This document shows positions 11,924 through 21,286 of a DNA stretch of 33,391 bases, in pieces (positions within the stretch are counted from its first letter, which is position 1; each line of letters starts with the position of its first letter). Position numbers and translations under genes: made by a program. The notes beneath the pieces were generated by a model. The model ran no database searches. It worked only from the letters and a program-made list of their open reading frames with translations, and was not told where the DNA came from. Origin of the DNA: Spirochaetota bacterium (GTDB lineage Bacteria; Spirochaetota; Spirochaetia; Treponematales; UBA12059); the NCBI GenBank assembly GCA_029560805.1, contig JAKQKE010000037.1:1-33391 (forward strand), read 5' to 3'.

Positions 11924-12745
11924 GTGGATACAGAGTTCGATCCTATAGCGGAGCCGCGCGTGGTCTACGAAGGCGACGGTGTGATCGTGGTCGCCAAGCC
12001 ATCCGGCATGCACTGCGCTCCGGCCGGGCGGCTCGCTCCGGCCGGCCCTGGCTCTACTCTCAGCGACTGGCTGTTCGAGCGCTATCCCATGGCGGCCGCG
12101 GTGGCGGGCCGGGGTAGGGGCGAGGGTGGGCTACTGCATCGGCTCGACGGCGCCACCTCGGGTCTCGTGGCGTTCGCGACCGACGACGGGAGCTTCGCCG
12201 CGATGAGCGCCGCGGCGGCGCGCGGCGCCTTCGTCAAGACCTATCGCGCGCTATGCCTCCCGGCTCCGGTCGGCCTCGCCGGTTCGCGGCCGGAGCTGTA
12301 CGCGCCGCCTGGAGCCGATCCTGACCGTTGGCGCTCCTGCCTGCTCCGAGGCGACGCCCCGGCCCTGGCGTCGATGCTGGCCGGCGCGTCGATCGAGAGC
12401 CGCTTCAGGCCCTATGGCCCGGGAGCGGCCCGCGTCGCCTGCGCGACGATCGGGCCCGGGCCAGCGTCTCGCGCCAAGGACTGGACTCGCGACTCGTACC
12501 TCAGCGACGTCGTAACCGCTCGGCCGTTCTCGTCGGGGCTCCTGGTCGAGGTACGGCTCGCGCGCGGCTTCAGGCACCAGATCCGCGCGCATATGGCCTG
12601 GCTTGGACTGCCGCTCGAGGGCGACGACCTATACGGCGACGGCGGGAACCGGGCCGCCGAGCTACGGCTCCGGGCCTTCAGGCTGTCGTTCCCGTCGCCC
12701 CGAGGCTCGGGGCCCGTCGTCGTCGAGCTAACGGAGCCTTGCTAA
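11924..12745 (+). CDS. RluA-family RNA pseudouridine synthase
   Basis: A 273-residue protein with the RluA core: VVYEGDGVIVVAKPSGM, the catalytic motif HRLDGATSGL with Asp75, FVKTYRALC, and near the C-terminus VEVRLARGFRHQIRAHMAWLG, a hallmark of the family. It isomerises uridine to pseudouridine in rRNA or tRNA; which site cannot be told. There is no S4 domain, so it is of the short RluA/RluC-like type. The GTG start at 11924 has a CGGAGGT ribosome site at 11914-11920. The 118 bases between it and the divergent channel gene hold no promoter I would commit to; TTGCAT (11877) and TATAGG (11898) are 15 bases apart. Confidence 0.92.
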   Translation: MDTEFDPIAEPRVVYEGDGVIVVAKPSGMHCAPAGRLAPAGPGSTLSDWLFERYPMAAAVAGRGRGEGGLLHRLDGATSGLVAFATDDGSFAAMSAAAARGAFVKTYRALCLPAPVGLAGSRPELYAPPGADPDRWRSCLLRGDAPALASMLAGASIESRFRPYGPGAARVACATIGPGPASRAKDWTRDSYLSDVVTARPFSSGLLVEVRLARGFRHQIRAHMAWLGLPLEGDDLYGDGGNRAAELRLRAFRLSFPSPRGSGPVVVELTEPC

Positions 12746-12774
12746 TACGCCATTCGCCGGATAGGATTACGGAT
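12739..12774 (+). promoter_or_regulatory. Weak candidate promoter before the 572-residue unknown gene
   Basis: TTGCTA (12739-12744), 17 bases, then TAGGAT (12762-12767) with seven bases to the ATG. The AGGA inside this -10 could alternatively act as a ribosome site eight bases from the start, so either reading is possible. Confidence 0.25.
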
Positions 12775-14493
12775 ATGGCCAGCGCATCGACGTTCGAAGC
12801 CCTCGTCCTCGATCTCAGCCCCTCGGAGCGCTCGGAGATGCTCGAGCGGCTCCAGCGCTCGTGCACGGTCTCGACCGAGCCGCTGTTCGAGCGGGGACAC
12901 CTCCAGGAGCCGCGCATCGATTACCGGGCCGCCTATAGTGAGCTGGGCTTGGTGACGCGCATCATTATCACCCTGCGGTCGATCTTCGGCGGCGGCAGCA
13001 AGGAAGACCTCGTCAAGGAACGCTTCCTCAAGGCCATAGTCAAACGCGTCGAGTCGACGAGCGCGGGGTTGATCGACGCGAAGCGGCGCGTGCTCCAGGA
13101 AGCCTTCTATCGGGAGCTCGCGACCCTCAGGCAGGCTGCCAGGTACTTCTACGACCTCCTCGATCGCACTCTCGAGAAGAACCGAGCGCCGTTCTTCGCG
13201 TTCCTCGCGTCCCTGGAGTTCGAGGAGATACACCGGGAGCTATCGACCGACGCGGACCCGTATCTCGTCGCCGAGCAGAACTCGACCATGCTCGACTCCG
13301 ACGTGCGCATAGCGGTCCTCGCGGCGATGGAGTCCGCGCTCGGCCGCATCGATGAGGATAAGCGCCGCCTGATGTACAAGGACGTGCGCAATCTCCACGT
13401 GCTCAAGAGCCTTTCGAGCTTCCTGTTCGATCGCATGCTCGCGGCGTTTCAGACCAATGTCTCCGGGCTCAAGGAGCTGTCGATGTACGCGGCCGCCGAG
13501 CAGCTCGCGGAGCTCGCGGCGATACTCTGCTCGCTGGACCAGCCGCCCTCGGCCCGGTTGATGGAAGCGATCCTAGGCTTCGAGCTGAACGACGACGTTG
13601 GCCGGGAGGGCTTCGACCTCGACGAGGCGGTTACAACCGAGCTCGCCAGCGCCGAAAAGGCCCTCGCGGCCATTCGCGGCTTCAACGCGAGGGTGCCCAT
13701 CGAGGACATCCTCAAGGTCGCCAACGAAGACCCGAACTGGCAGTGCGCGACCACGGGCGGCGGCGAGGACTGGTTCGCCATCTTCAAGTCGTATTGGCGC
13801 GAGCGGATCGACCGCCGATACCAATGCTTCTCCGCGGAGCGGCGTATCGCCCAGCTCGATTCCGATATCCAGGCCCTCGTCGGCAGGGACGCCCCGACCT
13901 GGTTCCAGTACCTGTCCGAGTCCGGCGGCGAGCGGATCCCGCCGATGCGCTACGCGAGGGCGCTACGCTTCCTCGAGGCGTTCTACCATCATACCTTCCT
14001 GAGCGACATCAACAAGTCGCTCAAGCTGGTGCTGCTCGAGGGTGAATTCTACAAGCGCGACAATAGGCTCGACTTCACCGACGCGTACAACGAGATCCTG
14101 CAGATTGGCGATGGTCTCAAACGCCTGGACTCGAGGCTGTCGCCGGACGGGGAGCTCGGCGGCGCCTACGGCCAGGCGCGCACGGAGCTGTCGTCGGTGC
14201 AGATCAAGCGCCGTAAGATAGACTCCGCCGTCAAGGCGGCGGACACCGAGGCGGAGGCCTTGCTGTCCAAGTCGGCGGACGCGATGAGGCGCATGAATGA
14301 GATCCTCAAAGCCATCCTCTCCCGGGAGACCCGCGGGCGCTACGACTCGCTATCGAACCTCGGCCGCATCGAGGGCAAGGCGAACAAGGAGTTCCAGAAG
14401 AGCCTTGAATCTTCCAAGGACAAGCTCGAGAAGGCGAACTTCCTGCTTTCGGAACTGATCAAGACGGCTGTCGGCGGCCTGGATCAAGCGTGA
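12775..14493 (+). CDS. Large unknown protein, probably a spirochaete-restricted family (DUF5312-like)
   Basis: Started at the ATG 12775 the product is 572 residues; a longer reading in the same frame runs back through the pseudouridine synthase gene and is not credible. It begins MASASTFEALVLDLSPSERSEMLERL, is soluble and mostly helical, has a basic segment after FGGGSKEDLVKERFLKAIVKRV, and ends in a coiled-coil-prone region (VQIKRRKIDSAVKAADTEAE, FQKSLESSKDKLEKANFLL). I think it belongs to a family found in Treponema and relatives (DUF5312) but could not verify this. No catalytic motif, signal peptide or membrane segment is visible. It overlaps the pgeF start as GTGA (14490-14493). Confidence 0.85.
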   Translation: MASASTFEALVLDLSPSERSEMLERLQRSCTVSTEPLFERGHLQEPRIDYRAAYSELGLVTRIIITLRSIFGGGSKEDLVKERFLKAIVKRVESTSAGLIDAKRRVLQEAFYRELATLRQAARYFYDLLDRTLEKNRAPFFAFLASLEFEEIHRELSTDADPYLVAEQNSTMLDSDVRIAVLAAMESALGRIDEDKRRLMYKDVRNLHVLKSLSSFLFDRMLAAFQTNVSGLKELSMYAAAEQLAELAAILCSLDQPPSARLMEAILGFELNDDVGREGFDLDEAVTTELASAEKALAAIRGFNARVPIEDILKVANEDPNWQCATTGGGEDWFAIFKSYWRERIDRRYQCFSAERRIAQLDSDIQALVGRDAPTWFQYLSESGGERIPPMRYARALRFLEAFYHHTFLSDINKSLKLVLLEGEFYKRDNRLDFTDAYNEILQIGDGLKRLDSRLSPDGELGGAYGQARTELSSVQIKRRKIDSAVKAADTEAEALLSKSADAMRRMNEILKAILSRETRGRYDSLSNLGRIEGKANKEFQKSLESSKDKLEKANFLLSELIKTAVGGLDQA

Positions 14494-15233
14494 ACGCACT
14501 CGGGACGACCGGAGCCTGCTCCGAGGCGCTACACCTACCGCTCCGCGGCGCGAACGCCCCTGTTGCCGTTATGAGCCTGGCGGCCGCAGGCGACATGGGC
14601 TTCGGCGACGACGGCAACCGTTCGAGGCGACGAGCCTGGCTGGCCGCGCGGGGCTTCGATCCCGGGGCGGCCGCGTCGGTCGACTTGGTGCACTCGAGGA
14701 CGGTGCTCGAGGCCCTCGAGCCGTCGGGCCAAGTCGGCCGCGAGGCGGACGGCCTCGTGACTAGCGGTGCCGGTCCCGTCCGCGTCCTCGTGATGACGGT
14801 CGCCGACTGCATGCCGATCTTCGTTTACGACCGGGACTCGGGCGCCTTCGGGCTCCTCCATTCTGGCTGGAAGGGGACGGGCATCCTGGCCGAGGCGGTC
14901 CGGCTCATGGGGCGGCTCTACGGTTCCAGGCCCGGGAGCCTGAGCGTCGCCTTCGGACCATGCATCGGTTCGTGTTGCTACGTGGTCGACGAGGCCCGGG
15001 CTCGCGCCTTCGAGTCGGAATTCGGCTCTACAGCGGTCGATAGGCCGGACGGAAGGCCCCGGCTGAACCTCGTCGAGGCGAACCGGGCGCTGGCCGACGC
15101 GCTCGGGCTGGTCGACCCATCGATCGCCGGCGACTGTACCTGTTGCGACGGCCGCTTCGGCTCCTTCAGGCGGCAGGGACCGTCGTCGTTCACCAGGATG
15201 GCCGTGGCCATCGGGCATACGGAGTCGGTATGA
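14490..15233 (+). CDS. pgeF: PgeF/YfiH peptidoglycan-editing or purine nucleoside-acting multicopper-oxidase-like protein
   Basis: The 247-residue protein matches the YfiH family (once called laccase domain). The metal-site residues are visible: His68 in DLVHSRTV, Cys107 in TVADCMPIFVYD and His124 in LLHSGWKGT, plus the GPCIGSCCYVV segment and the C-terminal DCTCCDGRFGSFRRQG. Family members have been shown to act on purine nucleosides (adenosine deaminase/phosphorylase activity), and E. coli PgeF is linked to correct amino-acid use in peptidoglycan. The start is GTG overlapping the stop of the previous gene, and its own stop overlaps the OmpA gene start as ATGA (15230-15233). Placement before an OmpA-type peptidoglycan-binding gene fits a cell-wall theme. 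Confidence 0.92.
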   Translation: MNALGTTGACSEALHLPLRGANAPVAVMSLAAAGDMGFGDDGNRSRRRAWLAARGFDPGAAASVDLVHSRTVLEALEPSGQVGREADGLVTSGAGPVRVLVMTVADCMPIFVYDRDSGAFGLLHSGWKGTGILAEAVRLMGRLYGSRPGSLSVAFGPCIGSCCYVVDEARARAFESEFGSTAVDRPDGRPRLNLVEANRALADALGLVDPSIAGDCTCCDGRFGSFRRQGPSSFTRMAVAIGHTESV

Positions 15234-16672
15234 CCGCAACCCGCGGCCTCAGATGCGCGATACGCGTTCATAGATGCGTGTCGCGCGGTCTCGCGTGCGC
15301 TCTGGCGCTATCGGCCGCCTGTGTCGCGCAGGCTCAAGCTGGCCTCACGCCCTTCAACCCGCCCGAGGGTCGAGTCATCGTCACCGAGCGATCGGACTTC
15401 TCGCGCTACGAGGACGGCCGCTACGTCGGACATGCCTACCGGGAGGCGAGGCTCGACCTGTCGCTGACCAGGACCGCCGAGGGCCTGGCCCGCTACTCGG
15501 GCGAGGCCCTCGTACTCGAGGAGACGATGCGCGATGAGAGGGCGGTGGCCAGGCGCCTCGACGAGGCCGTGCCGGTTGAGTTCACCGCCGGGCCGGACGG
15601 TACGCTACGCTTCTCGGTCGACCGAGGCTATCCGATACTCCGCGGAGTGCCGACCTCGCCACCCGAGGACGTGGCCATAGGCGGCCGCTGGACTGGCTAT
15701 GGCTCGGTCGTCGTCAGGCCACGGCCCGGCCATAGCGCGACGAGGGTGCGGGTGCTCGTCGAGTACGAGTATCGAGGCCCCACGAACTACGCCGGTCGCG
15801 CCGCCGAGGCGATCAGGGCGCGCTACGCCGTCCGATACGACGGGCGCGATCCCTCGGGCGACCCGGACATGAGCGGCGCCACCGGCGGCCGTACCGTCGA
15901 TATCGTCATCGACGCCGAGGACGGCTCCACGCTGTTCATCCGCGAGACGATCGATGAGAGCTATACCTATCGAACGTATCCGACCGTCAGGCTCAAGGGT
16001 TTCATCCTGCATTTCCATCGCGGCAGCTTACCCGGGGACCGGGATCGGGTCGTCGCGACGATCACCGGCGCGCCCTTGTCGTCGCCATCGTCAGCGCCAC
16101 CGTCAGCGTCCGCCGGCGCAACCGGGACGCCGTCGGCCGGAGCCACCGGGACACCGTCGGCGTCCGCCGGTGCCACCGGGACGCCGACGGCCAGAGCCTC
16201 GCCAGGCTCGTCGGCGCCAGGCTCGTCGGCGCCAGGAACCGGAGTGCCTGTACCGGGCGGCGCCGTCACGGCGAGCCCGTCGCCAGCGAGCCAGCCTGGA
16301 GGGGCGTTCGAGCTGGCCCGGGGCGAGCGAGGCGTCGTGATGTTGCTGTACGACCTGCGCTTCGTGGCCGACGGCGACGAGCTGCTCGCCTCCGAGCGCG
16401 GCCGACTGGACGCGATAGCCGAGGCGCTCGGACGCCTACCCGATCGTACCTTCCTCGTCGAGGGTCATACCGCCGACCTTGGCAAGCCGGCCGGCCAGTA
16501 CGAGCTTTCGGAGCGGAGGGCCAGGCGCATCGTCGACGAACTGGCCGCGCGGGGCATCCCGGAGAATCGGTTCGTCTATCGCGGGCTCGGTGCCGATCGG
16601 CCCATCGCGCCGAATGACAGCGAGGCCAACCGCGCGCGCAATCGCAGGGTCGAGATAACGATTCTCGACTGA
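15230..16672 (+). CDS. OmpA-domain peptidoglycan-binding exported protein with low-complexity linker
   Basis: Started at the ATG overlapping the pgeF stop, the protein is 480 residues. A signal peptide ends near AACVAQAQA. Residues about 30-280 form a beta-rich domain with VIVTERSDFSRYEDGRYVGH that I do not recognise. Residues about 284-355 are a Ser/Ala/Gly/Thr/Pro linker with near-exact repeats. The C-terminal 110 residues are an OmpA-like domain: LRFVADGDEL, VEGHTADLG, LSERRARRIVDEL and NRARNRRVEI, with the Asp and Arg used to hold diaminopimelate. It should be exported and bind peptidoglycan non-covalently. No outer-membrane barrel is evident; the linker suggests a tether between the wall and another structure. 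Confidence 0.9.
   Translation: MTATRGLRCAIRVHRCVSRGLACALALSAACVAQAQAGLTPFNPPEGRVIVTERSDFSRYEDGRYVGHAYREARLDLSLTRTAEGLARYSGEALVLEETMRDERAVARRLDEAVPVEFTAGPDGTLRFSVDRGYPILRGVPTSPPEDVAIGGRWTGYGSVVVRPRPGHSATRVRVLVEYEYRGPTNYAGRAAEAIRARYAVRYDGRDPSGDPDMSGATGGRTVDIVIDAEDGSTLFIRETIDESYTYRTYPTVRLKGFILHFHRGSLPGDRDRVVATITGAPLSSPSSAPPSASAGATGTPSAGATGTPSASAGATGTPTARASPGSSAPGSSAPGTGVPVPGGAVTASPSPASQPGGAFELARGERGVVMLLYDLRFVADGDELLASERGRLDAIAEALGRLPDRTFLVEGHTADLGKPAGQYELSERRARRIVDELAARGIPENRFVYRGLGADRPIAPNDSEANRARNRRVEITILD
16105..16235 (+). repeat. In-frame short tandem repeats encoding the OmpA-protein linker
   Basis: Three near-identical units encode (SAS)AGATGTP (for example at 16109-16134, 16136-16155 and 16160-16186) and are followed by two copies of a 15-base unit encoding SSAPG (about 16207-16236). 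The repeats keep the reading frame and should allow length changes of the linker by slippage. Confidence 0.7.
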
Positions 16673-16715: not shown

Positions 16716-17330
16716 ATGGATCTACGACGATACCTTGGCCTATACGCCGTCTCCCCGCTCGGTCTCGCCATGTCGGCGGCCTCGGTCGCCGTTGGGGCGG
16801 CCGTCGGCTTCGCCGCCTCGCCGCTCGCTGGCGTGGCCGCCTGCCTCGTAACCGAGGCGACCGCCTTCGCGATAACCACGGCGAGCGGCCTCGGCCCCAA
16901 GGCCGCCGTCGCCGAGGGCGAGCGCCGCGCCTGGGCCGAAGCGAGCGAGCGGCTCGAGGCCGTCAAGCGCGACCGCGACCGCCTCGCGACGATGCGCCTG
17001 CCCGACGACGAGCTGGGCTCGCTCGTCAGACTCGCCGCGACGAGGGGCGCCTCCTACCTGGCGGCCAGCCGGAACGCCAAGAGCCGCGTCCCCCAGGCCG
17101 AGGAGGCTTTGTCCGACTGCCTTTCAGTCGCCGACCTGTACCTCAAGGAACTGGACGCGGCCTCGACCGAGAGGAGGCACGGCCTTGACGACGCCGATCC
17201 CTTCGCCGACGCCAAGGGACGCGCGAAGGCGGCCCTGGTCGATAAGGCGGCCATCATCGAGAAGGCCACGCGCGACCTGTCGGGCGGCCTTTCACCCGCC
17301 GACGCCATGGATATTAAGGAGCGACTATGA
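16716..17330 (+). CDS. Small membrane protein with cytoplasmic helical domain, first gene of radical-SAM operon
   Basis: A 204-residue protein if started at ATG 16716 (MDLRRYLGLYAVSPLGLAMS); a TTG at 16692 in the same frame is an alternative but has a poor ribosome site. Two adjoining hydrophobic segments (about 10-32 and 35-58) form a hairpin, after which the chain is charged and helical (EGERRAWAEASERLEAVKRD), with a C-terminal half rich in Ala, Lys and Asp. No known domain is recognised. It overlaps the next gene as ATGA (17327-17330), so it is almost certainly made with the ACHX-tailed protein. A scaffold or chaperone role at the membrane is a guess. Confidence 0.8.
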   Translation: MDLRRYLGLYAVSPLGLAMSAASVAVGAAVGFAASPLAGVAACLVTEATAFAITTASGLGPKAAVAEGERRAWAEASERLEAVKRDRDRLATMRLPDDELGSLVRLAATRGASYLAASRNAKSRVPQAEEALSDCLSVADLYLKELDAASTERRHGLDDADPFADAKGRAKAALVDKAAIIEKATRDLSGGLSPADAMDIKERL

Positions 17331-19012
17331 GCAGTAGCAGCACTCGCCGCGCGTACGGGCGCTTCCGCTGGAAGCCGAGCCTGGCGGCGCTTCTCCTCTT
17401 ACTCGCGGCCCTGGCCGTCGGTAGCGCCTCGGCGTTGGCGAGCGACCTGGCGTCGGTCGATATTACGGTCAACCTGCGGCCCGACGGCAGGGGCGAGATC
17501 TTCTATACGCTCGAGTGGCGCGTGTCGTCGGGTGATATGAGCGGCTTCTATTTCCAAGGTGAGGCTTTCGCGCCGGTCTGGAACCTGACGCGCTGCTACG
17601 CCGACCTCGACGGCGGGCGGCGCGTCCCGCTACGCATCGATGACCTGGGCTCGGGACGCTACGACGTCGTGCTCGAGGGCGGCCGCAGGTTCTCGGGCAC
17701 GGCCTACTACGTGATGAACTACGCCGGCGACTTTGCCGGGGCCGGGCTCGTCGGCCTGACCGAGAGCCCGGAGCGCGGCTCCCTGGTCTACTTCGACTGG
17801 GCTCCGGTCGAATGGGACGAGGCGCTCGAATACCGGGCCGTCAGGCTCGTGCTGCCCGTCCGCGTCTCTGGGGAGCGCTTGGGGGACGACGAGAAGCGCT
17901 CCGTGCCGATGCTCACCGAGTCATGGGTCAACGAGCAGAACCGCATCGACTACTACGGCTCCCAGGGTGACGACGGGGCCTACTACCTGACGGCGCTCTT
18001 CTATCAGGAGGCGCCTCGGGCCAACGCGGAGCAGCGCCTTGGCCTCTATTTCCCCGAGGGCTACCTTGACCTCGACGCGGCGCTCGGTAGTCGCGCGACG
18101 ACCGACGGCATCGGCCGGGGAGAGCGGGGCGATCGGACCGGCGGACCCGCCGCGACCATCGGCCTTCTCGCGGCCCTCGGCGCGGCGATCGCCGCGGCCC
18201 TGCTCCTCTATCGCCGGCGCGCGACCAAGCACGCCGAGCGCGCCTCTCTGGTCGAGGCCATCGCGTGGGCCGGCGATGCATGGACGCCGCCCAAGCTGTT
18301 CGCCGGCAGCTACCAGGTACCGGGCAAGGTACCGGAGGATCTGCATCCGGTCGAGGCTGCGCTCCTCCTCGAGCTGGCCCTTCCGCGCATCGCCTCGATC
18401 ATGGTCGACGCCCTCGTCGCCCAGGGCCTCGTGGCCGTCGAGCGGGAGGACCCGCTCAAGCTACGCTTCCTGTCTGAGCGCGCGGCCGCCGACGAGATCG
18501 AGGAGCGTTTCATGGCCTCCTTCGACGCCGACGGGAACGTCCTGCCGGGGCTCCTCGCCGACTTCTTCGAGGGCGCCATCAAGAGCCTCCAGGAGAAGGT
18601 CTGGGACTGCGACCTGGAGGCGACGAAGGATCATTACCGCAAGAAGCTGCTCGAGGCCGGCAGGCGGGCCGACGAGGTCGCGAGCTGGGACGAGTCCCGT
18701 CGCACGGCCTACTATCGCGAGCACCGCGCTTGGATGTACTGGCGTAGCTACGCCGTCATCTCGACGAGGCCGGATCGACTGGCCGGCGTGCGCTTGCCCG
18801 AGGGCATGACGGCCGGCTACGCGGACTTCATGCGCTCGGCGGTCTGCTACTCCGGCTGCTTCACGCCCGACAACGTCGGGACGGTTGGCTCGTGCCATTC
18901 GGCTTGCCATAACGCCTGCCACGACGCCTGCCATTCGGCCTGCCACTCGGCTTGCCATTCGGCCTGCCACTCCGCCTGTCATTCCGCCTGCGTTTCGGGG
19001 AGTTCGCATTGA
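17327..19012 (+). CDS. DUF2207-like membrane protein with C-terminal ACHX (Cys-His) repeat tail; candidate radical SAM substrate
   Basis: A 561-residue protein. A signal peptide or first helix (about 16-38) precedes an exported beta-rich domain beginning DLASVDITVNLRPDGRGEI, typical of DUF2207 proteins. A membrane helix (about 276-298) ends in YRRRATK, placing the rest in the cytoplasm. Next comes a winged-helix-like segment (PVEAALLLELALPRIASIMV) and a linker. The tail is exceptional: Cys at 523, 527, 531, 535, 539, 543, 547, 551 and 555, each of the first eight followed by His, in the pattern C-H-X-A. A CYSGC at 507-511 has the same Cys spacing and phase. It overlaps both neighbours and is followed at once by a radical SAM gene. 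None of its 13 Ile codons is ATA, unlike several neighbours. The ATG has an AAGGAG ribosome site. Confidence 0.88.
   Translation: MSSSSTRRAYGRFRWKPSLAALLLLLAALAVGSASALASDLASVDITVNLRPDGRGEIFYTLEWRVSSGDMSGFYFQGEAFAPVWNLTRCYADLDGGRRVPLRIDDLGSGRYDVVLEGGRRFSGTAYYVMNYAGDFAGAGLVGLTESPERGSLVYFDWAPVEWDEALEYRAVRLVLPVRVSGERLGDDEKRSVPMLTESWVNEQNRIDYYGSQGDDGAYYLTALFYQEAPRANAEQRLGLYFPEGYLDLDAALGSRATTDGIGRGERGDRTGGPAATIGLLAALGAAIAAALLLYRRRATKHAERASLVEAIAWAGDAWTPPKLFAGSYQVPGKVPEDLHPVEAALLLELALPRIASIMVDALVAQGLVAVEREDPLKLRFLSERAAADEIEERFMASFDADGNVLPGLLADFFEGAIKSLQEKVWDCDLEATKDHYRKKLLEAGRRADEVASWDESRRTAYYREHRAWMYWRSYAVISTRPDRLAGVRLPEGMTAGYADFMRSAVCYSGCFTPDNVGTVGSCHSACHNACHDACHSACHSACHSACHSACHSACVSGSSH
18893..18991 (+). 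repeat. 12-base tandem repeat encoding the ACHX tail
   Basis: Eight in-frame units of the form TGCCAY followed by two codons (usually Ser-Ala, once Asn-Ala, once Asp-Ala) end in a final TGC. Codons differ synonymously between units (TGCCAT, TGCCAC, TGTCAT; TCGGCC, TCGGCT, TCCGCC), so the peptide pattern is better conserved than the DNA. Confidence 0.95.
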
Positions 19013-20316
19013 GCCGCGCGATCGAAGAACTCGAGTGGGTCTACGGCTTCTGGCGGGGGCTATCGCCCTACGCCTACGCGCGGACCGAGGACGAGGTGGT
19101 CATCCTGCCGCCCAACCTGGTCTATAAGACCAACCGGACCGGCGCCGCCCTGCTCGAGTACCTCGGCACGGGCGGACGCTTCGAGGACTTGCCCGGCTTC
19201 GACGACGAGAAGGCGGCTCAGGTCGGCTCGTTCTTCCTGTCCCTGAAGGCGGCCTACGAGGGCCGCCCGGTCGAGCTGGAGCGAGTGCGCTACGGCTTCG
19301 ACTTCACGCGGCTACCCGTGCTCGGCGAGATAGCGATCACCTATCGTTGTAATAACCGCTGCCTGTTCTGCTACGCCGGTTGCGGCGACTCGAGCGGCCT
19401 GGCCCTCGCGCAGGGCGACGGCGCGTCGGAGCTCGATACCGCGGAGTGGATACGCGTCCTCGACCTGTTCAAAGACGAGGCCAAGATTCCGTTCTTCTCG
19501 TTCACCGGCGGCGAGCCTCTCATGAGACCGGACGTCGAGGAGCTGGCTGCCTACGCCGTCTCGCGCGGGCTCAGAGTCAACCTGGTCACGAACGGGCGCC
19601 TCGCGACGCCGGAACGGGCCGCGTCGCTGTACGCCTCCGGCCTCCGCACCGCCCAGGTCAGCCTGGAGGCGCCCGAGGCGGCCCTGCACGATAGACTATG
19701 CGGCGCCGAAGGCGCGTTCGATGAAAGCGTCGCCGGTATCATAGCCATGATCGCCGCCGGCATATCCGTCCAGACCAACTCGACGTTGACCCGGGCCAAC
19801 GCCGAGGCGCTCCTCGGGCTGCCAGCCTTCGTCGCCGGGCTCGGCGTTCGTCGCATGTCGATGAACCTGTTCATTCCGACCGGCACCGGCCGCCATGGCG
19901 GCGGCCTCTTTTTTCCGTACGCCGAGGCCGGCGCCTTCATCGACGAGGCCAGGCGTCGCGCCCACGAGGCCGGCGTCGACTTCTACTGGTACTCGCCGAT
20001 GCCGATGTGCTTGTACAACCCCATCGCCAGGGGGCTCGGCAATAAAAGCTGCGCCGCCTGCGACGGTCTCCTGTCCGTCTCGCCATCCGGCGACGTGCTA
20101 CCGTGCTCGTCGTGGCCCGAGCCGGTTGGCAACCTGCTGTCGGACGGCTTCGAGCGGGTCTGGTTCTCGGAGGCGGCGGCCTGGTTTAAGCGCAAACGCT
20201 ACGCGCCGGAGCCGTGTATGACCTGCGGCTCGTTCACGGCCTGTCAGGCCGCCTGCCCGCTCTACTGGAAATTCGCCGGCCACGACGAGATCAAGCCGCG
20301 CGCGGAGGCTCGATGA
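19009..20316 (+). CDS. Radical SAM/SPASM enzyme with PqqD-like N-terminal domain, putative peptide maturase
   Basis: Started at the TTG that overlaps the previous stop (TTGA, 19009-19012; ribosome site GGGGAG), the protein is 435 residues. Residues about 25-85 (VVILPPNLVYKTNRTGAALLEYL, then DEKAAQVGSFFLSLKAAYEG) look like a PqqD/RiPP-recognition domain. The radical SAM cluster is CNNRCLFC, a CX3CX2C motif at Cys114, 118 and 121, with SFTGGEPLMRPD as the SAM-binding GGE motif. The C-terminal SPASM part has Cys in CAACDGLLSVSPSGDVLPC and CMTCGSFTACQAAC for auxiliary Fe-S clusters. Enzymes of this layout install thioether or C-C bonds in ribosomal peptides. The obvious substrate is the ACHX tail of the gene just upstream. 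The exact chemistry cannot be read from sequence. Confidence 0.92.
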   Translation: MSRAIEELEWVYGFWRGLSPYAYARTEDEVVILPPNLVYKTNRTGAALLEYLGTGGRFEDLPGFDDEKAAQVGSFFLSLKAAYEGRPVELERVRYGFDFTRLPVLGEIAITYRCNNRCLFCYAGCGDSSGLALAQGDGASELDTAEWIRVLDLFKDEAKIPFFSFTGGEPLMRPDVEELAAYAVSRGLRVNLVTNGRLATPERAASLYASGLRTAQVSLEAPEAALHDRLCGAEGAFDESVAGIIAMIAAGISVQTNSTLTRANAEALLGLPAFVAGLGVRRMSMNLFIPTGTGRHGGGLFFPYAEAGAFIDEARRRAHEAGVDFYWYSPMPMCLYNPIARGLGNKSCAACDGLLSVSPSGDVLPCSSWPEPVGNLLSDGFERVWFSEAAAWFKRKRYAPEPCMTCGSFTACQAACPLYWKFAGHDEIKPRAEAR

Positions 20317-21206
20317 TGGAAATACGTTTTAGGTTCCTCAAGCTGGGTCTCGGCTCCCGGCTCGTGGCGGCCGCCGCCCTGTACACCGCGGCGGTCGGCC
20401 TTCAGTTGATCCTGGGCTCGCCGTTCTTCGGCCTGCCGGCGATACTCGCCGCCTGGCTTCTCCTGGCGCTCAAGCCGGCCACGAACAAGCCCGACGACCA
20501 GGGCCTGGAGGAGTGGCGAGCCGTGACTGACGGCGAGGTCTCCAGGATGGCCGACGCTCTGGCCCGGTCGCGGAAGCTGCGGAACGGCGTCATAGGGCCC
20601 GTAGCCGCCGGCGTCATGCTGCTCGGCCTGCTTCTCTTCGGAACCATCGTGCTGGCCGCCGTCGGCTCGAGGCTGTGGCTGGTAACGCTCGACCTGGCGC
20701 TGTTCTCGTTGCCCGGGCTGTTCTTCGGGCGTATCGGCGTCCACGTACCGGCGGAACTCGACCTTGCGATGGGCCGTTTCCTGGCTGCGATGAGCGTGCC
20801 GCTACCGGAGGGCTACGCGATGACGCCATACCTACGCTTCGACAAGGACGGACAGGGCCGTGACGTTCCCGAGAACCTGCGCCTGATGCTCGAGCCGAGG
20901 CGCAAGCCGGACGACCTGGTGGGCGTGCAATTCCAGGCGGCCATCAACAAGGGGCCGAACGGCAACGTGCCCTATATGTACGCCGTCGCCCTGACTCGTG
21001 GCCGCTCAGGGCCGGCCTACGCGCAGCTGAGCGGGCTGCGACTCCGCGGCTATGAGGTTGAGCCGGGCGGCGACGACGAGTACGGCACCGTCGTGGTCAG
21101 GCAGGATACCTCCGGCGGAGGCTACCATACGACCGATGACGACTGCGAGTCGCTCGTCCGGCTCATGGTCAAAGCCCTCGAGCGTACGGAGGCCCTGACC
21201 CTATAG
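20313..21206 (+). CDS. Membrane protein of unknown function, last gene of radical-SAM operon
   Basis: A 297-residue protein. Two consecutive ATGs are possible: 20313 overlaps the radical SAM stop as ATGA, while 20316 sits seven bases from a GGAGG site. Four hydrophobic stretches occupy the first half (about 12-30, 32-47, 88-112 and 115-137), with a charged loop between the pairs. The second half is soluble: LAMGRFLAAMSVPLPEGYAM, LMLEPRRKPDDLVGVQFQAA, then VVRQDTSGGGYHTTDDDCESLVRLM. I recognise no family. Its position suggests a role with the ACHX protein, such as handling, holding or recycling it, but this is inference. Confidence 0.85.
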   Translation: MMEIRFRFLKLGLGSRLVAAAALYTAAVGLQLILGSPFFGLPAILAAWLLLALKPATNKPDDQGLEEWRAVTDGEVSRMADALARSRKLRNGVIGPVAAGVMLLGLLLFGTIVLAAVGSRLWLVTLDLALFSLPGLFFGRIGVHVPAELDLAMGRFLAAMSVPLPEGYAMTPYLRFDKDGQGRDVPENLRLMLEPRRKPDDLVGVQFQAAINKGPNGNVPYMYAVALTRGRSGPAYAQLSGLRLRGYEVEPGGDDEYGTVVVRQDTSGGGYHTTDDDCESLVRLMVKALERTEALTL

Positions 21207-21230: not shown

Positions 21231-21275
21231 ATAAAAAAGGAACGGCCGCCCTATACGATAGGGCGGCCGTTCCTT
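21231..21275 (-). terminator. Rho-independent terminator with 18-bp perfect stem
   Basis: A perfect 18-base inverted repeat (21237-21254 and 21258-21275) surrounds a three-base loop. Read on the minus strand the stem is followed by a run of T ending at 21233, ideal for ending the FMN-binding gene at 21287. On the plus strand the tail is CCTTACCC, so it may stop the radical-SAM operon less efficiently. Confidence 0.93.
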
Positions 21276-21286
21276 ACCCAGAGATA

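Follow-up and report, generated by a model that had tools for sequence, protein, structure and literature searches.

Radical S-adenosylmethionine (SAM) enzymes with a SPASM domain commonly make cysteine thioethers on cysteine-bearing substrates, and in the ACGX system the partner of such an enzyme is an ACGX-repeat peptide. Among related systems, TvgB modifies TVGG tetrapeptide repeats repeatedly (PMC9062424), and QhpD makes thioethers within a protein subunit, QhpC (PMC8172795, PMC7876137). A further group, the TIGR04222 membrane proteins, carries a low-complexity, cysteine-bearing C-terminal tail beside an MNIO enzyme, the modification being unproven there as in the case described below (PMC12452194). 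Here we analyse a 33,391-nucleotide stretch of DNA (the window; contig JAKQKE010000037.1 of assembly GCA_029560805.1, Spirochaetota bacterium, UBA12059), to which all coordinates refer, and describe in it a membrane protein with a C-terminal CHxA-repeat tail, encoded next to a radical SAM/SPASM enzyme. We propose that these two genes form a core, in which the membrane protein would hold a fixed cytoplasmic CHxA array and the dedicated enzyme would modify that array unit by unit, a reading to which we give a probability of about 0.7.

The CHxA tail and its partner enzyme

In the open reading frames of the window, four overlapping genes on the + strand span positions 16716-21206, and their junctions are the stop/start overlaps ATGA, TTGA and ATGA, just as an earlier note on this DNA had read them. 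The second gene (17327-19012) encodes the tail protein, a DUF2207-like membrane protein of 561 residues and the putative substrate; the third (19009-20316), whose TTG start overlaps the stop of gene 2, encodes the enzyme, of 435 residues. The C-terminus of the tail protein is CHSACHNACHDACHSACHSACHSACHSACHSACVSGSSH. Its tail proper (residues 523-558; 18893-19000) has the form (C-H-x-A)x8-C-V-S-G, with nine cysteines and eight units in the order C-HSA-C-HNA-C-HDA-(C-HSA)x5-C-VSG. Upstream of the repeat lies a CYSGC motif (C507-x3-C511; 18845-18859), conserved in Spirochaetales.

Conservation of the array was read from 49 fully readable tails, namely those of the order's operons together with those of G313, G317, L043 and L044 (the last two being close copies of each other); the partial tails of G001 and G157 were excluded. 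Nine cysteines are present in 44 of these tails, eight in four and ten in one. Cysteine and alanine never vary within the units, nor does histidine in the inner ones; at the x position S, N, D, Q, H, G or A is found. The close relatives of the window are metagenome-assembled spirochaetes, e.g. HGW-Spirochaetae-3 and SZUA-370. When the window is compared with seven relatives, synonymous divergence in the tail (pS) is 0.44-0.76 and non-synonymous divergence (pN) 0 to 0.10, part of it being due to switching of serine between TCN and AGY codons; outside the tail, pN in gene 2 is 0.06-0.32 for the same seven. Codons are scrambled among the units, and these comparisons show strong purifying selection on the tail. 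Nor is the array a product of chance, since among 393 phylum genomes the pattern of four units plus cysteine matched 16 and that of three units plus cysteine 22, while a reversed control pattern matched none of them.

Our evidence on co-occurrence covers a single phylum and, beyond it, a few bins whose labels are doubtful, and in the genomes searched the pairing of tail and enzyme is exclusive. The same 22 of 393 phylum genomes carry the three-unit tail pattern and match the enzyme profile at more than 300 bits, and the remaining 371 carry neither; the profile was run on a sample equal in size and composition to that of the tail scan, and its next matches fall below 165 bits, apart from a single fragment whose genome is counted already. 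The enzyme is found in all eight genomes of the genus, in 21 of 23 of the family and in 49 of 294 of the order, and the array is present in 47 of the 47 operons of the order with a readable tail, two others (G014 and G047) being cut at the tail by contig ends. In every locus read, the two genes are adjacent. Four genera of patchy distribution (g149, g190, g124 and g200) contain genomes with both or with neither, and relatives detected with the gene 2 profile, in 11 of 237 genomes, all lie in enzyme-positive ones. The co-occurrence expected in the earlier note is borne out by 22 of 22 phylum-sample genomes and 47 of 47 operons; an enzyme without a cysteine tail was sought in these and not found. 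Distances among tail proteins and among enzymes agree with a mirror-tree r of 0.90, which is what joint inheritance of the two would be expected to give.

Six genomes of the sister clade f39 had seemed enzyme-positive and tail-negative under the four-unit pattern. When read, their loci (L230-L235) showed three (CHSA)3-CV blocks, in a tail protein that is about 920 residues long and has a related cytoplasmic domain, and the apparent counter-example is therefore gone. In all six, the pair is followed by a CxxC zinc-ribbon coiled-coil protein and a zinc-ribbon protein with two transmembrane helices, which replace gene 4 (e.g. L231:2178-3970), and genes 1 and 4 were not detected in these loci. Because f39 is without detectable genes 1 and 4, the conserved core consists of the tail protein and the enzyme rather than of four genes. 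The four-gene operon of the earlier note thus needs a minor correction: only genes 2 and 3 are conserved in all relatives, and genes 1 and 4 are lineage accessories. We also observed that Cys-Val seems to close each f39 block, as ACVSG closes the array of the window.

Some loci came from bins assigned elsewhere. L043 (JANQQD010000171.1) and L044 (JANQIX010000081.1), in bins labelled Anaerolineae and Alphaproteobacteria, have in common a 9.2 kb stretch with the operon at 92% DNA identity and differ in their upstream parts; this sharing would reflect either mis-binning or transfer. L045, labelled Chloroflexi, encodes at a contig end a tail protein that shares 80% identity with that of the window.

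Architecture of the two proteins

Gene 3 matches the Pfam families Radical_SAM (80.5 bits; cut-off 29.5) and SPASM (34.2 bits; cut-off 21.5), and both domains are present in 35 of 35 enzyme members. The CxxxCxxC motif for the radical SAM cluster (C114, C118 and C121; 19348-19371) is conserved, and the SPASM cysteines C348, C366, C403, C406, C412 and C416 (20050-20256) are invariant. The N-terminal domain (19009-19308) may be a PqqD-like recognition element, since eight of the 35 members match PqqD there, if weakly (best E 0.002). The domain assignment made in the earlier note thus holds clearly for Radical_SAM and SPASM and weakly for the PqqD-like part. The subfamily is sharply bounded (about 700 versus 91 bits within the family). 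Gene 3 exceeds no NCBIfam cut-off, the ACGX family TIGR04340 reaching 62.2 of 400 bits, so that the suggested kinship to the ACGX system extends to general radical SAM/SPASM architecture and no further. A search of plasmids recovered nothing but radical SAM enzymes, PqqE-type ones among them, with 29% identity.

The predicted model of the tail protein (predicted local distance difference test, pLDDT, 81.8) comprises a hydrophobic N-terminal helix, either a signal peptide or a first transmembrane helix (residues 17-34; 17375-17428), a beta-sandwich ectodomain (residues 37-245; 17435-18061), a transmembrane helix (residues 276-294; 18152-18208) followed by the positively charged stretch RRRATKHAER, and a cytoplasmic alpha/beta domain (residues 341-480; 18347-18766), which is the best-matched part of the body in the sister clade. 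The tail itself is modelled as a helix with pLDDT below 50, and the model is therefore uninformative about it. Positive charge precedes the first hydrophobic helix and follows the second; since these flanking charges follow the positive-inside rule, the tail is placed in the cytoplasm with the enzyme. Predicted topology thus supports a cytoplasmic tail, in agreement with the orientation given in the earlier note. Attachment of haem at CX3CH motifs was considered and set aside, as the tail is predicted to be cytoplasmic and the motifs overlap along its whole length.

In its fold, the modelled ectodomain is similar to one domain of Ost1/ribophorin I and to the domain at the N-terminus of M1 aminopeptidases (Z 16.3, 2.8 A over 182 residues). 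Function is not deducible from a fold shared with these proteins, and the fold may be general to DUF2207 proteins. Gene 2 does not reach the gathering score of Pfam DUF2207 (PF09972/PF20990); one member matches DUF2207_C at E 0.036, a search for DUF2207_C across the family members gave no match above the cut-off, and the gene 2 profile found nothing usable among PDB sequences. Although the Pfam cut-off is missed, a profile-profile comparison with an alignment of DUF2207 proteins of the phylum matches over the ectodomain (columns 27-175) with a probability of 92% and E 5.5e-7, on the strength of which gene 2 is a distant DUF2207 relative. The description of gene 2 in the earlier note as a DUF2207-like protein with a C-X3-C tail is upheld as to the tail, and in this distant sense as to the kinship. 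In this phylum the tails of ordinary DUF2207 proteins are rich in glycine and free of cysteine, and hence the CHxA array stands where the glycine-rich tail would be.

A probably modified tail and rival readings

What might the enzyme do with such a tail? Judged by the biochemistry of radical SAM/SPASM enzymes, the tail is very probably the substrate. We propose that the enzyme would be recruited to the tail protein through its N-terminal PqqD-like domain, and would modify the CHxA repeats successively in the cytoplasm. Thioether links from cysteine sulfur to carbon would be the most likely product, at slightly under even odds when set against other chemistry, again by analogy with characterized enzymes. 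Each unit cysteine has histidine at +1 and alanine at +3, and Cys-Val stands at the end of every array or block. The modified tail would then stay, unreleased, on the membrane protein as a protein-bound element resembling a ribosomally synthesized and post-translationally modified peptide (RiPP), and would do its work there, for instance as a cytoplasmic module, rigid or able to bind metal, that is coupled to the ectodomain. Speculatively, gene 4 could tether either the tail or the enzyme to the membrane. In our reading the product would remain part of the membrane protein for good and would not be a secreted peptide, because no protease or exporter is conserved beside the pair, among conserved or scanned neighbours, the body is conserved, and the tail is almost invariant. 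On balance we favour, with less assurance than for the two-gene core, an obligate protein-bound RiPP-like module over a natural product: the enzyme would modify the invariant CHxA tail in a regular ladder, and the tail so modified would function where it lies in the cytoplasm.

Several points weigh against this proposal. Modification of the tail is inferred, and no thioether acceptor is obvious from the sequence. By sequence, the case for a PqqD-like domain is weak, and a PDB sequence search with it gave nothing. The best matches of the enzyme below the cut-offs include the haem-pathway proteins AhbD (126 of 500 bits) and NirJ2 (113 bits), not only peptide maturases. Finally, the co-occurrence lies inside one phylum, and its instances are not phylogenetically independent.

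The matches to AhbD and NirJ2 lend themselves to a different account, in which the tail is an unmodified Cys/His ladder binding metal or clusters and the enzyme has some other substrate, such as a porphyrin or small molecule with which the same membrane complex deals. Pairs of cysteine and histidine are natural ligands, and two zinc-ribbon proteins come after the pair in the sister clade. We nevertheless consider this account unlikely, given that tail and enzyme pair one-to-one, that there is precedent for a radical SAM/SPASM enzyme modifying a tetrapeptide repeat encoded next to it (PMC9062424), and that the PqqD-like N-terminal domain hints at a peptide. A conventional RiPP would place the same modification on a tail that is afterwards cut off and secreted, and a C-terminal repeat core behind a recognition region is indeed the usual RiPP layout; yet protease and exporter are not conserved across lineages among the scanned neighbours, the large membrane body, unneeded by a disposable leader, is retained and found only with the enzyme, and the tail is predicted to be cytoplasmic and is almost invariant, whereas peptide products diversify. 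Such a secreted product seems to us improbable, more so than the metal ladder. Slippage can create short tandem units, but a low-complexity expansion at the DNA level, kept by drift beside an incidental enzyme gene, is already contradicted by the nine cysteines of 44 of 49 tails, the scrambled codons, the strong purifying selection and the exclusive pairing, and deserves hardly any credence.

If the tail is modified as we propose, radical SAM peptide chemistry would build a permanent part of a membrane protein, adding to a small number of protein-level cases, QhpC among them, and would parallel the TIGR04222/MNIO proteins by other chemistry and on the opposite side of the membrane. The near-identical CHxA units should make the reaction readable by mass spectrometry with ease. 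The pairing itself is clean, exclusive and highly conserved, and has no name in the NCBIfam and Pfam models used.

Surrounding genes and relation to known systems

Gene 1 (16716-17330) encodes an accessory protein of 204 residues with an N-terminal membrane hairpin; it is found across Spirochaetales relatives and was not detected in L043 and L044 or in the f29, f42 and f39 loci. Gene 4 (20313-21206) encodes a membrane protein with two transmembrane hairpins and a domain (residues 147-297) whose arrangement, in a model of pLDDT 94.3, resembles that of type III secretion chaperones and YbjN; because the best Z is just 6.8, the likeness is a hint only. The gene 4 model had no Foldseek match at E < 0.001 and its profile found nothing usable among PDB sequences, and neither gene 1 nor gene 4 has a convincing family match in Pfam or NCBIfam. 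A convergent gene is separated from the end of gene 4 by a long inverted repeat (21236-21276; ggaacggccgccctata..tatagggcggccgttcc region), which is probably a bidirectional terminator. Upstream (12328-16672) lie genes for a DUF5312 protein, a laccase-like Cu-oxidase_4 protein and an OmpA-domain protein, whose position beside the operon is kept in many members of the family. In genome G317, a B12-binding radical SAM gene (L146:3356-4744) adjoins the operon on the opposite strand.

How does the pair relate to described systems? With the ACGX system (TIGR04340) it shares a tetrapeptide cysteine repeat and a radical SAM/SPASM partner; histidine takes the place of glycine, the repeat sits on a 561-residue membrane protein, and the enzyme scores 62 of 400 bits. 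The CXXX-repeat system (TIGR04117, Syntroph_Cxxx) is alike in offering a radical SAM target with cysteine at every fourth residue, and its model scores 8 bits on the window's tail against a cut-off of 50, the best member reaching E 0.045. TvgB and TvgA differ in having a free peptide, a C-C bond on valine and no cysteine in the TVGG repeat (PMC9062424). QhpD and QhpC come closer in one respect, since a radical SAM/SPASM enzyme there forms intra-protein thioethers in a working protein rather than a secreted peptide, but the QhpC subunit is soluble and has no repeat, its three thioethers have Asp/Glu acceptors, and a leader protease belongs to the system. DUF2207 proteins (PF09972, PF20990) have the same succession of signal or transmembrane helix, related ectodomain, transmembrane helix, cytoplasmic domain and low-complexity C-terminus, whereas the ordinary members in the phylum are cysteine-free at the tail and occur in genomes without this enzyme.

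Among published ideas, the closest is that of the TIGR04222 proteins, in which a cysteine-tailed membrane protein is likewise encoded next to a RiPP-type modifying enzyme. There, the enzyme is an MNIO and the tail is periplasmic; here, the enzyme is of the radical SAM/SPASM type and the tail is predicted to be cytoplasmic and is nearly invariant. About a third of TIGR04222 genomes are without an MNIO gene (PMC12452194), in contrast to the exclusive pairing of our two genes. The TIGR04222 domain had no match in 36 tail-protein members at E 10, and no MNIO (DUF692-type) gene was present among the operon genes or the scanned genes of the window. In the open-licence literature, searches for CHSA repeats and for CXXX and ACGX repeat systems found no relevant paper, and the tail-enzyme pair was not found in the family libraries or the open-licence literature searched. 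Radical SAM repeat-precursor systems and the cysteine-tailed membrane proteins of the TIGR04222/MNIO kind are thus the known kinds, on which the pair described here is a variation.

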